In this document: positions 16,984 through 26,112 of the stretch, piece after piece
How the letters are laid out: every line of letters starts with the position of its first letter
Numbering within the stretch: the stretch's first letter is position 1
Assembly (NCBI RefSeq): GCF_003967015.1
Contig: NZ_AP017560.1
Location: 1,488,001 to 1,552,000 of the forward strand
Source: Pseudanabaena sp. ABRG5-3
GTDB taxonomy: Bacteria > Cyanobacteriota > Cyanobacteriia > Pseudanabaenales > Pseudanabaenaceae
Direction: 5' to 3'
Length of the DNA stretch: 64,000 nt
The notes under the pieces: generated by a model
Databases searched by the model: none
The model's input: only the letters and a program-made list of their open reading frames with translations
Told to the model about the DNA's origin: nothing
Translations under genes and position numbers: made by a program

Positions 16984-17352
16984 ATGGCACCTTACTCACT
17001 AGATCTTAGGCAAAAGATCGTAGCAACCTACGAAGCAGGAAATACATCGATTCGTGAAGTAGCTAAGCAATTTCAAGTCGCGACAAAAACAGTGCAAACA
17101 CTGCTGAATCAATACCGAGAGACAGGAGAACTAAACCACAAACCATTAGGGAGTCAAATCAAAAGTCCGCTCGAAGCCCATCGAGAGAAAATCCTCAAAA
17201 TTGCGACAGAGCATCCAGATTGGACACTATGGCAGTACTGTGAGGAAGTAGCAGAACAAACAGGAGTATCAGTGACCACGGGCAGTATGTGCCGATTTTT
17301 CCAGAGGCATAACATCACGCTAAAAAAAAGACCTATCGCCATGAAAAGGTAA
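16984..17352 (+). CDS. IS630 transposase, N-terminal frame (orfA)
   Basis: This 122-residue first frame carries the helix-turn-helix DNA-binding part (SLDLRQKIVATYEAGNTSIR, EVAKQFQVATKTVQTLL) and a second winged-helix-like segment (GSMCRFFQRHNITLKK). It ends just after a run of eight A residues (about 17322-17329, CTAAAAAAAAG). A -1 or +1 slip in that run would join it to orfB and make a full-length transposase, as in other IS630 elements with programmed frameshifting. A simple inactivating indel is the alternative. Confidence 0.85.
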   Translation: MAPYSLDLRQKIVATYEAGNTSIREVAKQFQVATKTVQTLLNQYRETGELNHKPLGSQIKSPLEAHREKILKIATEHPDWTLWQYCEEVAEQTGVSVTTGSMCRFFQRHNITLKKRPIAMKR

Positions 17353-17930
17353 AAAGTGAGGCAGTACAACAGCAAAGATGTGAATTTTGGGAAGCATTGC
17401 AGGGGGTAAAAGCTGAAGATCTTATTTGTATTGATGAAACGGGAGTATGGCAGGGAATGGAACGCTCTGTGGCAAGAAGTGAGTGTGGCAAGAGAGTATT
17501 CAGTCATCGTCCCTTTTACAAAGGTCAGAAATACACAGTCATTGGGGCTATTTCGGTCGATGGTATTGTTTGCCTGAAAAAGATTCAGGGTTCAATGAAA
17601 GGGGAAGATTTTCTCACCTTTATCCAAGATGACCTAGTACCTAAATTACGTCCTGAACATAGGATAATCATGGATAACCTCAACTGCCATAAAGTTGAGG
17701 GGGTCGCAAAAGCAATTACAGAGACAGGCGCTAAGATTTTGTACTTACCCACCTATTCTCCTGATTTTAATCCAATTGAGATGATGTGGTCGGTTCTCAA
17801 ATATTTTATTAGATTGCTTAGACCTCAGTCTCAAAAACTACTTCAGCATTTAATCAACGTTTTCCCTTACTTGTTAGAAAAAGATTTCTTCAAAAATTGG
17901 TTTACTAAGTGTTGTTACTGTACTACTTAA
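17330..17930 (+). CDS. IS630 transposase, catalytic frame (orfB)
   Basis: This second frame carries the DDE catalytic domain. Visible motifs are CIDETGVW (first D), RIIMDNLNCHK (second D) and YSPDFNPIEMMWSVLK (E), with the usual spacing. The frame is open from just after the A-run; the first ATG inside it is at 17397, after KSEAVQQQRCEFWEAL. It is therefore more likely made as a frameshift fusion with orfA than from its own start. The domain looks complete, so the copy may still be active if frameshifting works. Confidence 0.85.
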
Positions 17931-21749: not shown

Positions 21750-21864
21750 TATAGCAATGTAAGTTTTGCTTAGGACATAAACCCAAATAAGTGAAGGCGG
21801 CACGAAGTGCCGCCTTCACTTATTTGGGTTTTGATTTGTCCTAGCTATCTCTTACATTGCTATA
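21750..21864. repeat. MITE-like palindromic element, family 2, copy b
   Basis: It is 115 bp with ends TATAGCAATGTAAG on both sides (inverted), then AGGACA and TGTCCT, then a perfect hairpin with arms ACCCAAATAAGTGAAGGCGG and loop GAA-like. Its right end supplies the TAG stop codon of aat (21860-21862). Compared with copy a at 3797, the outer parts match and the inner arms differ. Confidence 0.85.
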
Positions 21865-22462
21865 CAAAAACACAAGATTTAGTTAATGCTTTTTGCAATA
21901 GATTTTGATAACTTTGATCGTCAATTTCATAGGCTCCAAATCTTGCTAAATGCGGATTCATTAACTGAGCATCAAATAAACCATACCCCCGCGATCGCAA
22001 ATGCTCTACTAACTTCACCATCGCTACCTTTGAGCCTTCAGGAATTTTAAAAAACATCGACTCACCAATAAATACGCCACGAATGGCGATCCCCAGAATT
22101 CCGCCTGCTAACTTGTCGCCTTGCCATGTCTCAAAACTATGCGCCCAACCTGCTTGGTGCAAATTAAAATATAGAGATCGCAGTTCGTTGGAAATCCATG
22201 TCGTTTTGCGATCGGCACAGCCTTCTACAACCTGCTCAAAGGCACTATCAATTCTGACTTCAAAGCGATTTTGATTGATCGCCCGTTGCAAAGATTTGGG
22301 ATAGCGAAAGCGATCGTCAAGGGGGATCAAGGTGCGCTCATTAGTGTAATACCACTCAATCGGCTGCCCATCGCCTTCAGACATCAAAAAGTAGCCTTGG
22401 CTATAACCGTCAATAACACTGCGGATATCAAACCTTTCCACAAATAAATTTCCAGCTCGCAA
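21860..22462 (-). CDS. aat: Leucyl/phenylalanyl-tRNA-protein transferase
   Basis: Aat adds Leu or Phe from aminoacyl-tRNA to proteins with N-terminal Lys or Arg, marking them for ClpS/ClpAP (N-degron pathway). The 200 residues carry the core motifs [48 protein letters not shown] and [15 protein letters not shown], followed by the C-terminal [19 protein letters not shown]. It starts with TTG at 22462; no ATG fits upstream of the first conserved residues. The last codon plus stop (GTA TAG) come from the end of a family-2 element, so the original C-terminus may have been trimmed or replaced there. Confidence 0.9.
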
Positions 22463-22634
22463 GTAAGGAATTTAATATTGCAATCTATCTTAAAGTCTCT
22501 TTACAAATCAACATAGTTTTTTAGCTTAATCCTCGTTTGCTAAACCAGATAATTAAATGAAAAACTACTCAGTATTTGCCTCAATTAGCCCATTAAAACA
22601 TGAGATTTTAAAAGCAAGATAAAAAATCTCAAAA

Positions 22635-22815
22635 AATAAATGGCTCACTCAATTTAAGTAAAATTACTTATCTAGAGTGAACCATTTATTTGTATAAATT
22701 GTTCTTAAATTTGGTATTGAAGTTCAGAATCTTTAAATGAGCCGATTCCGTTTGAATGTTTATATTTTGCAAGATCTTGATCAAAAATTGGGATCGCTTA
22801 ATATTTTCTTTATAA
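22635..22815. ncRNA. Candidate structured RNA element, tandem copy A
   Basis: Stem 1 pairs AATAAATGGCTCACTC (22635-22650) with 22675-22690, with a single C/A mismatch and an inner TAAGTA/TACTTA stem. Stem 2 pairs CAGAATC (22725-22731) with GATTCCG (22744-22750). Then comes a shared tail CTTAATATTTTCTTTA. Copy B keeps the same pairs with different bases. The strand is unknown: the two shared mismatches (C/A and A/C) become G/U wobbles if the minus strand is transcribed. No promoter was identified. Confidence 0.45.
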
Positions 22816-22977
22816 TTTGAGTCGGCAGTTTTACCTAAGTTTATATACCCACATCCAAAATCTTGATAGCTCCAGATCCCCATATAAGTGAGTGAAAATA
22901 CTTAGGTTCTTTGTGTGGTTATCCCTAATTGACAAAATTAATATCGATTAAAGCGAAATTATCAAGAATTTGCATAA

Positions 22978-23163
22978 AAATAAGTGGCTTCTTAAAGCTA
23001 GGTAAAAATAACCATTTGCTTTGAGAAACCACTTATTTGGTTAGTAGTTTATTAAGTTTGTATTTAAATTCAGAGCCTATATATAAGCTGGCTCCGTTTG
23101 AATGATCCTATTTTGATCGAAAATTTGACACTTGCGGGATCACTTAATATTTTCTTTACAGTT
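22978..23163. ncRNA. Candidate structured RNA element, tandem copy B
   Basis: Stem 1 pairs AAATAAGTGG plus TTCTTAAAGC (22978-22998) with 23018-23038, keeping the C/A mismatch of copy A at the same place. Stem 2 pairs CAGAGCC (23071-23077) with GGCTCCG (23090-23096). The block CGTTTGAATG and tail CTTAATATTTTCTTTA are conserved with copy A. Several base pairs differ from copy A by compensating changes on both arms. Confidence 0.45.
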
Positions 23164-23490
23164 AATTTTACAAGCTTAAAGATTAAGTATTTGTACTTAG
23201 TCTTTAAGCGATTATTAATTTGTTTTGGGCGATATTAATTAACATATTTATTAATTTGGACACTTAATTTATTGGTACTTTTTTATTAAATTTACTGATT
23301 CTTTAATATTGATTTTTATATAGATTTATCTCTTTTTATATCGATACATATCATTTGCTTAACAAAGTTTCCCAAAATCCCCATAGGTACGGAAACACAC
23401 ACCCTTTAGCAAGGTAGAACCGATCCCTCTAAAAATCTAGACATTCTAAGATATTCCTAGTTGTCTAAACACTACAGGAGGTAACTAGCG

Positions 23491-26112
23491 ATGCAACCAA
23501 CTAATCCCAATCAATTTACTGAAAAAGCATGGGCGGCGATCGCAAGGACACCCGACGTGGTGAAAGCAGCCCAACAACAACAAATTGAGCCAGAGCATTT
23601 ACTAAAATCCTTGCTAGAGGAAGAAGGACTAGCATCAAGTATTTTTAGCAAAGCGGGGATCAATATTCAACGGTTGCGCGATCGCACCGATGAGTTTATT
23701 AATCGTCAGCCCAAAGTATCTAGCTCAAATAGTGCAGTTTACTTAGGCAAAAACTTAGATGTATTACTTGATCGCGCCGACAAGGAACGTAAAGGTTTTG
23801 GCGACGAGTTTATTTCCATCGAACATATTTTGCTGCCCTATTGCAAAGATGATCGCTTCGGGAAAGTCCTTTATCAAGAAATGGGACTCGATGAAGCCAA
23901 GCTCCGTAACATTATTCAGCAAGTCCGAGGCAATCAAAAAGTGACAGATCAAAATCCTGAAAATAAATATGAAGCGTTAACTAAATATGGTCGTGATCTT
24001 ACGGAATTAGCGCGTGAAGGTAAACTCGATCCCGTAATTGGTCGTGATGATGAAATTCGCCGCACGATCCAGATTTTGTCGCGTCGTACTAAAAATAATC
24101 CTGTTTTAATTGGTGAACCGGGTGTGGGTAAAACGGCGATCGCTGAAGGTTTAGCTCAACGCATTCTCAGTGGTGATGTACCTGAATCTCTACAGGGTCG
24201 TAAGCTGATTGCCCTTGATATGGGTGGACTAATTGCTGGTGCAAAATATCGTGGTGAATTTGAGGAAAGACTGAAAGCTGTCCTCAAGGAAGTGACCGAA
24301 TCAAGTGGTCAATTTATTCTCTTTATCGATGAAATCCATACGGTCGTCGGTGCGGGTGCAACACAGGGCGCAATGGATGCAGGTAACTTGCTGAAGCCCA
24401 TGTTAGCTCGTGGTGAGTTGCGCTGTATCGGTGCAACGACTTTGGATGAATATCGCAAATATATTGAGAAAGATGCCGCCCTTGAGCGTCGCTTTCAACA
24501 GGTATATGTCGATCAGCCCAATGTCGAAGATACGATTTCGATTTTGCGCGGTTTGCGCGATCGCTACGAGTTACATCATGGCGTAAAAATCTCGGATACA
24601 GCGCTAGTAGCCGCCGCCACCCTTTCCAATCGCTATATTAGCGATCGCTTTTTGCCAGACAAGGCGATCGATTTAGTTGATGAAGCTGCGGCAAAGTTAA
24701 AAATGGAAATCACCTCGCAACCTGAAGCCCTTGATGAAATCAATCGTAAGGTGATTCAGCTAGAGATGGAATGCCTCTCTTTGAAAAAGGAAACCGATCG
24801 TGAATCTTTAGATCGTCTTGAAAAGTTGAATAAAGAATTGGGCGACTTGAAGGAAGAACAAACTACCCTCAAGGCTCAGTGGGAAGCTGAAAAACAGGTA
24901 ATCGATAATATTCGCAAACTCAAGGAAGAGATCGAGCATGTGAATGTGGAAATCCAACAGGCTGAGCGTGACTATGATCTCAACAAAGCTGCCGAACTCA
25001 AGTATGGCAAGCTTACCGATTTACAGCGTCAGTTAGAAATTGCTGAGGTCAATCTCGAAGAAGCCAAAACTTCAGGGCGATCGCTCTTACGTCAAGAAGT
25101 TACCGAAGAAGATATTGCCGAAATCATTTCTAAATGGTCGGGCATTCCTGTTAGCAAGCTAGTTGAATCGGAAAAAGAAAAGCTTTTGCAACTGGAAGAT
25201 GTTCTCCACGATCGCGTTATTGGGCAAGAAGAGGCTGTCACTGCGATCGCCGATGCGATTCAGCGTTCCAGAGCTGGACTCGCCGATCCTAATCGTCCGA
25301 TTGCCAGCTTTATTTTCTTAGGTCCCACAGGTGTCGGTAAAACGGAACTTGCCAAAGCCCTTGCCGCCTATCTCTTCGATACTGAAGACTCGATGGTGCG
25401 GATTGACATGTCTGAATATATGGAGAAACATAGCGTTTCCCGCTTAGTCGGCGCACCTCCTGGATATGTCGGTTACGAAGAAGGCGGTCAATTGACTGAA
25501 GCTGTGCGTCGTCGTCCCTATGCTGTGATTCTCTTTGATGAAATTGAGAAAGCCCATCCTGATGTCTTTAACATCATGTTGCAAATCCTCGATGATGGTC
25601 GTGTTACCGATTCCCAAGGTCGCACTGTTGACTTTAAGAATTCGATTATCATCATGACCAGTAACGTTGGTTCCCAATTTATTCTCGATATTGCAGGAGA
25701 TGATGCTCGCCATGAGGAAATGCGCGATCGCGTGATGGAATCGATGCGCTCTAGTTTCCGTCCTGAATTCCTCAACCGTATTGATGAAATTGTGATCTTC
25801 CATGCCCTCCGCCGTGACGAATTACGCCGTATCGTCAAACTGCAAGTCAAGCGTTTAGAACAACGTTTATCGGAACGTCGCATGACCCTCAAGCTTGCTG
25901 ATGCTGCCCTCGATTTCATCGCCGAAGTTGGCTATGACCCTGTCTACGGTGCGCGTCCACTTAAACGGATCATTCAGCGTCAACTGGAAACTCAAATTGC
26001 GAAGGGAATCTTACGTGGTGACTATACTGACGGTGACACGATTTTTGTCGATATCGAAAATGAACGCCTCGCCTTCAGACGACTTTCTGGAGATCTAATC
26101 ACTGTTTCTTAA
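23491..26112 (+). CDS. clpB: ATP-dependent disaggregase ClpB
   Basis: ClpB is a hexameric AAA+ chaperone that, with DnaK, pulls polypeptides out of aggregates. The 873 residues match the family. Order: Clp N-domain (1-145, two repeats), AAA-1 with GEPGVGKT (Walker A) and [13 protein letters not shown] (Walker B), the long coiled-coil M domain (about 410-530, [12 protein letters not shown]...) that distinguishes ClpB from ClpA/C, AAA-2 with [14 protein letters not shown] and [12 protein letters not shown], and the C-terminal D2-small domain. A strong AGGAGGT site (23476-23482) precedes the ATG. The 1-kb upstream region with structured elements may take part in regulation. Confidence 0.98.

Follow-up and report, generated by a model that had tools for sequence, protein, structure and literature searches.

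Tandem minus-strand elements between aat and clpB in Pseudanabaena: probable members of a small RNA family found across cyanobacteria

What do the two similar, structured elements between aat and clpB in Pseudanabaena sp. ABRG5-3 encode? In the window (the whole stretch of 64,000 nucleotides analysed), aat occupies 21860-22462 on the minus strand and clpB 23491-26112 on the plus strand, and the interval between them holds two elements that align in register, offset by 346 nt. A preliminary description of the locus had suggested either a new cyanobacterial small RNA (sRNA) family or a leader element. We think it highly probable that each element is a free-standing sRNA gene of the minus strand. 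This reading is drawn from the comparison of its copies, in which the promoter, the strand, the structure, the terminator, the distribution and the independence from neighbouring genes can each be followed.

The two elements, their structure and their strand

Copy A (22617-22814) and copy B (22970-23160), both given with their -10 boxes, stand in tandem and are each about 180 nt long; a search of the whole 5.66 Mb genome returned these two copies only. Identity reaches 74% between 22701-22769 and 23047-23115, and 89% between 22790-22817 and 23136-23163. The order of parts is common to both: long hairpin, spacer, small hairpin and a conserved block (22797-22812 in copy A, 23143-23158 in copy B). 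The two tandem elements with compensating stem changes were thus correctly described beforehand, as the stems, mismatches and conserved blocks named there are all present. One of the blocks has to be reinterpreted: CTTAATATTTTCTTTA is not an unpaired block inside the RNA, since on the minus strand it reads TAAAGAAAATATTAAG, which is the -10 box together with the 5' end of the transcript. By their sequence, copies A and B are paralogous small RNA genes, predicted to read on the minus strand away from clpB (Table 1).

Table 1. Predicted features of the two elements, in window coordinates
Feature	Position	Strand	Basis
sRNA copy A, predicted transcript of ~180 nt	22617..22803	-	-10 box, core and terminator conserved in 18 genus copies
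Predicted ends of copy A	start ~22802; end in T-tail ~22617-22622	-	inferred from sequence
-10 box of copy A, TATAAAG on minus	22808..22814	-	near-invariant in 40 sequences, kept across the phylum
Small hairpin of copy A, 7 bp with 12-nt loop, flanked by unpaired CATTCAAAC and GAACTTCAATACC	22725..22750	-	40- and 74-sequence pair counts
Terminator hairpin of copy A, 17 + 6 bp	22634..22691	-	pair counts, covariation
T-tail of copy A terminator, TTTTTTGAGATTTTTTA on minus	22617..22633	-	sequence
sRNA copy B, predicted transcript of ~180 nt, start ~23148	22970..23150	-	as copy A; B-type in 23 genus genomes
-10 box of copy B, TGTAAAG on minus	23154..23160	-	same conservation as copy A box
Small hairpin of copy B, CGGAGCC-AGCTTATATATA-GGCTCTG	23071..23096	-	40- and 74-sequence pair counts
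Terminator hairpin of copy B	22978..23038	-	RNAalifold
Palindrome AAGTA-TTTG-TACTT, candidate activator site (about -36 to -50)	23185..23198		24 bp upstream of the copy B -10 box

The small hairpin was evaluated on 40 genus-level core sequences, in which 279 of 280 cells are paired (99.6%) and two-sided changes occur in five of the seven pairs, whereas slid registers are only 16-50% paired. None of 500 shuffles reaches its covariation score and most genomes of the genus have the two copies as a tandem pair, so the likeness of the two elements goes beyond chance. Across the phylum, all 518 cells in 74 sequences are paired, in an alignment that was fitted to the model and thereby favours the model's pairs, with slid controls still at most 53% paired. 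In these sequences six of the seven pairs show two-sided changes, and the covariation score is 0.604, compared to 0.314 ± 0.016 for shuffled and at most 0.227 for slid alignments. The hairpin has the consensus RGGGUC-AGCCnAUAUAAA-GACCCU in most lineages, and the aligned distant matches have in common the -10 box, an unpaired UCAAAY, the hairpin and a downstream AUAAAU stretch.

The second structural part is the large hairpin. In copy A its stem has 95.4% of cells paired over 23 pairs, with two-sided changes in 10 of them and a covariation score reached by 0 of 500 shuffles; in copy B, RNAalifold on 22 sequences predicts 14 pairs, eight of them with two-sided changes. With the same program, a terminator stem of 15 bp also emerges outside the genus. 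The parts follow one another on the minus strand as TATAAAG box, core, large hairpin and T-tail, and a hairpin-plus-T score of at least 14 is found no more than 120 nt downstream in 47 of 74 copies, compared to none of 74 shuffled ones. The long covarying hairpin with its T-tail is thus predicted to be an intrinsic terminator.

The strand follows from the small hairpin: the minus strand is fixed because all 40 genus-level sequences have in it one pair that is G-U there and A·C on plus, the pair at the same position being G-U on minus in 72 of 74 sequences across the phylum. Moreover, G-U cells of the large stem are in excess on minus, whether the structure is derived from the minus strand (32 vs 8 and 37 vs 12, minus vs plus) or from the plus strand (16 vs 7 and 23 vs 13). 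Together with the placement of the T-tail, these counts bear out the minus-strand RNA that the preliminary description had favoured. It had also held one T/G pair of copy B against this choice, an argument that loses its force as the pair sits in a helix extension that shows no covariation. This extension of the small hairpin (ATTCAAA/TTTAAAT) was left uncounted, because its middle position sets a C against A, C or T and hardly ever pairs on minus.

A plus-strand element, either a clpB leader or a plus-strand sRNA, could draw on that same G-T pair and on the large stem, symmetric enough in some B copies to be flanked by T-runs on either side. We regard it as very improbable, given that the A·C pair would lie in the hairpin of nearly all sequences, that the order of -10 box and terminator suits the minus strand alone and that clpB is not adjacent to the elements in most genomes. 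A clpB leader was rejected for its wrong direction as well as for this lack of adjacency.

Returning to the minus-strand sRNA, its putative promoter is marked by the arrangement TATAAAG-AAAA-nn-TTAAG, almost without variation in the 40 genus-level sequences. No -35 box is evident upstream of the -10 boxes. A scan with the sigma-70 consensus gave promoter-like sites no more commonly than in shuffled sequences, and the promoter claim is therefore based on conservation and not on consensus.

Distribution, neighbouring genes and independence

A blastn search with copy A over 58 related genomes found the element in nearly all genomes of the genus, mostly as the tandem pair. Of the 26 genomes of the genus, 24 have one or both copies; some keep a B-type copy alone and one keeps an A-type copy alone. 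In the two genomes without a match the contigs break where the element should be, inside aat in G009 and 342 nt upstream of aat in G015, and the absence is therefore an assembly gap and not a loss. In the tree, the A copies and the B copies are split by one branch with support of 100/100, which places the tandem duplication before the divergence of the sampled species. The A copy would have diverged afterwards.

Two copies in tandem might also suggest a repeat or mobile element (a MITE or an IS end) instead of an RNA gene, a reading to which we give almost no credence. The 5.66 Mb genome has just the two copies and other genomes have one or two, their position in the genus is stable, and the compensatory changes keep the structure. 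In addition, distant blastn found no matches in plasmid and phage records, and there was no sign of the numerous non-orthologous insertions, flanked by target duplications, that such an element would leave.

The preliminary description placed the elements upstream of clpB, which is an incidental neighbour that adjoins the RNA in only some genomes of the genus, in which aat is the more constant one. The minus-strand order B, A, aat holds in most of these genomes. This order, and the presence of proB next on the same strand in many other genomes, would be expected of a cis-acting leader or attenuator whose large hairpin terminates transcription conditionally and whose target is the downstream same-strand gene (aat in this genus, proB or sfsA in others). 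Such a role is very unlikely in our opinion, as the downstream gene is unconserved and often convergent, a leader would hardly be built from two terminated copies in tandem, and no alternative antiterminator pairing covaries. Within the genus, moreover, aat lies on a different contig from the RNA in three genomes (G007, G010 and G013) and is inverted relative to the RNA pair in one only (L048, genome G001).

The free-standing sRNA gene can be followed far beyond the genus. A covariance model of the core (R1) matches 35 of 38 genomes of the bacterial family and 130 of 291 genomes of the class. At E up to 0.01, a second model built from 74 sequences (R2) matches 201 of the 291 sampled class genomes, which belong to 99 of 130 genera; these E-values are rough, and the weakest distant matches lean partly on the common -10 box. 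An example of a weak match is a Synechocystis 6714-like locus (E 0.008, 41 bits). The further copies with covariation in related genomes, for which the preliminary description had asked, are therefore abundant. Most genomes have one or two R2 matches, usually one. There were no model matches in lineages including a small-genome family (f2) and families f5 and f14. The exact 23-base hairpin pattern was also searched in GTDB and gave 61 matching stretches among 84,980 species, by title all cyanobacterial save one contig of a metagenome-assembled genome labelled Gracilibacteria. This contig (L156) is probably misbinned, because a YqeG like the cyanobacterial ones adjoins the RNA element on it.

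The commonest arrangement outside the bacterial family has the RNA after yqeG, with both on one strand (DUF3727-mltG-yqeG-[RNA]-proB). Some groups have it beside a DUF3493 gene and an SLH protein, others between rubA and sfsA in the order ycf48-rubA, RNA, sfsA, and Synechocystis-like genomes have the order rsuA-yqeG-[RNA]. These neighbours are what we take the genes to be from reading their sequences. The Synechocystis-like copies sit after homologues of slr0361-slr0362, directly after that of slr0362 (names from PMC6508509). In one Synechocystis-like genome, a retron-type reverse transcriptase was observed about 2 kb from the RNA (L220, 2333-3457). The downstream genes vary between lineages and are often convergent, and the RNA and its -10 box stay.

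Because the neighbours change while promoter, RNA and terminator stay together, we read the element as a free-standing sRNA and not as a clpB leader. Of the two options left by the preliminary description, the sRNA is thus favoured by the copies, their covariation and the lack of an Rfam match, and the leader is disfavoured, since transcription would run away from clpB and lineages differ in the gene that follows the terminator. As for what is generally expected of a trans-acting bacterial sRNA, a promoter of its own and an intrinsic terminator are seen here as conserved sequence, and no conserved reading frame is present. A small protein was considered and rejected on the latter ground: the sole frequent AUG depends on a U-A pair, in place of which the other half of the family has C-G (ACG and ATG alternate), and stops follow the candidate start from codon 4 onwards, at scattered codons.

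Comparison with known cyanobacterial RNAs

Whether the element belongs to a known family was examined with Rfam 15, and the answer is negative for the window and for 20 distant loci alike. At the gathering threshold the whole window gave tRNAs only, permissive thresholds added nothing except chance miRNA models, and the 20 distant homologous loci again gave tRNAs only. 6S RNA (RF00013) resembles the element as a cyanobacterial non-coding RNA of about 180 nt, but its closing stem and central bubble are absent from the sRNA family described here. It was rejected, as its model has no match at 22550-23300 even at E 5; the true 6S RNA of the same genome lies at G000:C1:3794434-3794621, and 6S RNA was found in 37 of 38 genomes searched.

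Yfr1 and Yfr2 resemble the family: they too are free-standing sRNAs spread over the phylum, in which an exposed motif is conserved and the transcript ends at an intrinsic terminator. They differ from it in motif, length and synteny: Yfr1 has 54-65 nt and carries CACUCCUCACACC (PMC4734099), and Yfr2 has 65-80 nt in Synechocystis (PMC5386190). PsrR1 (SyR1) is likewise conserved, and is a trans-acting RNA of about 130 nt controlled by RpaB. However, it lies in fabF-hoxH, unlike the Synechocystis-like copies described above, and it was rejected for this different location and because the probe and primer sequences of PMC2662882 are, by eye, unlike the consensus.

Two further RNAs are disfavoured by their location. 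PmgR1 (Ncr0700) has a similar length and is abundant, with a 195-nt overlap between Synechocystis strains; in Synechocystis 6803 it lies beside the transposase ssr2227 and is numbered next to psrR1 (PMC5386190, PMC12850537), not after slr0362, and is thus disfavoured. Sye_sRNA1, of about 200 nt, shows wide cyanobacterial conservation and a conserved structure, but is found after psbD or cobB (sll1501 in Synechocystis 6803; PMC6091082), neither after yqeG nor beside aat, and is disfavoured in the same way. A search of main texts in the literature by sequence strings and neighbour names gave no description of the sRNA, and its Synechocystis orthologue may be an unnamed entry in published transcript or transcription start site lists. 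We conclude that this is a new family of a known kind, the free-standing cyanobacterial sRNA, identity with PmgR1 or Sye_sRNA1 being improbable by location.

Upstream sites and possible mode of action

The palindrome AAGTA-N4-TACTT, allowing up to one mismatch, stands upstream of all 24 B copies and of eight of the 18 A copies. In the window, a 16-bp hairpin-forming palindrome at 23174-23209 was observed to span this candidate operator upstream of copy B. Other lineages have a different kind of site. HLR1 is the RpaB motif KTTACAWW-N2-KTTACAWW, for which an activating position has likewise been described (PMC13421787). HLR1-like sites (up to three mismatches) occur in 16 of 74 upstream regions compared to 2.6 expected, all in other lineages, none having been found upstream of the copies in this genus. 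The signal is modest, and the sites are candidate RpaB sites by sequence. Many of them end 16, 26 or 36 nt from the -10 box, and this phasing of about 10 bp with a position near -45 to -66 would fit low-light activation, which we consider a lead and not a proof.

From these elements a tentative mechanism can be outlined. Transcription of an RNA of about 150-200 nt would start at a promoter that has a -10 box and, further upstream, an activator site but lacks a clear -35 box, the activator site being the operator palindrome in this genus and HLR1-like RpaB sites in other lineages. The RNA would carry the phylum-conserved hairpin with conserved single strands on either side and end at the intrinsic terminator. 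If it accumulates in the cell, its exposed loop and flanking single strands may pair with target mRNAs, and its level may be set by the light or redox state. We lean, by a small degree, towards an action by base pairing in trans.

The main rival, to which we give a minor though real share of probability, is that the RNA binds or sequesters a protein, the fixed-loop hairpin being the site for an RNA-binding protein. Loop and stem are both conserved over the phylum, and three of 74 copies (L105, L106 and L138) have the conserved hairpin twice in tandem within the same RNA. However, one hairpin per RNA is usual, unlike in CsrB-type sponges, and the unpaired stretches CATTCAAAC and GAATTTAAATACC outside the hairpin are fixed in the genus as firmly as the hairpin itself.

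Going back to the trans-acting sRNA, few such RNAs are, to our knowledge, known to span the cyanobacterial phylum. By its sequence, the present family makes a good candidate for a core regulator of cyanobacteria that has so far gone undescribed. The bolder version, a core riboregulator of the rank of Yfr1 or PsrR1, retained by most genera, controlled by RpaB in many lineages, hence involved in light acclimation, and missed since its stems drift while the structure stays, is one that we put forward as possible while rather doubting it. A family that occurs in most genera, keeps its hairpin and loop fixed and has no Rfam match lends itself readily to annotation and to knock-outs in model strains, the Synechocystis-like orthologue being located by its slr0362 homologue. 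If the link to RpaB is true, an RNA arm would be added to light and redox acclimation, and the tandem copies of the genus allow asking how an sRNA pair divides its work. Elsewhere in the window, at 16984-17930, two abutting open reading frames together resemble an IS630-type transposase split by a frame change.
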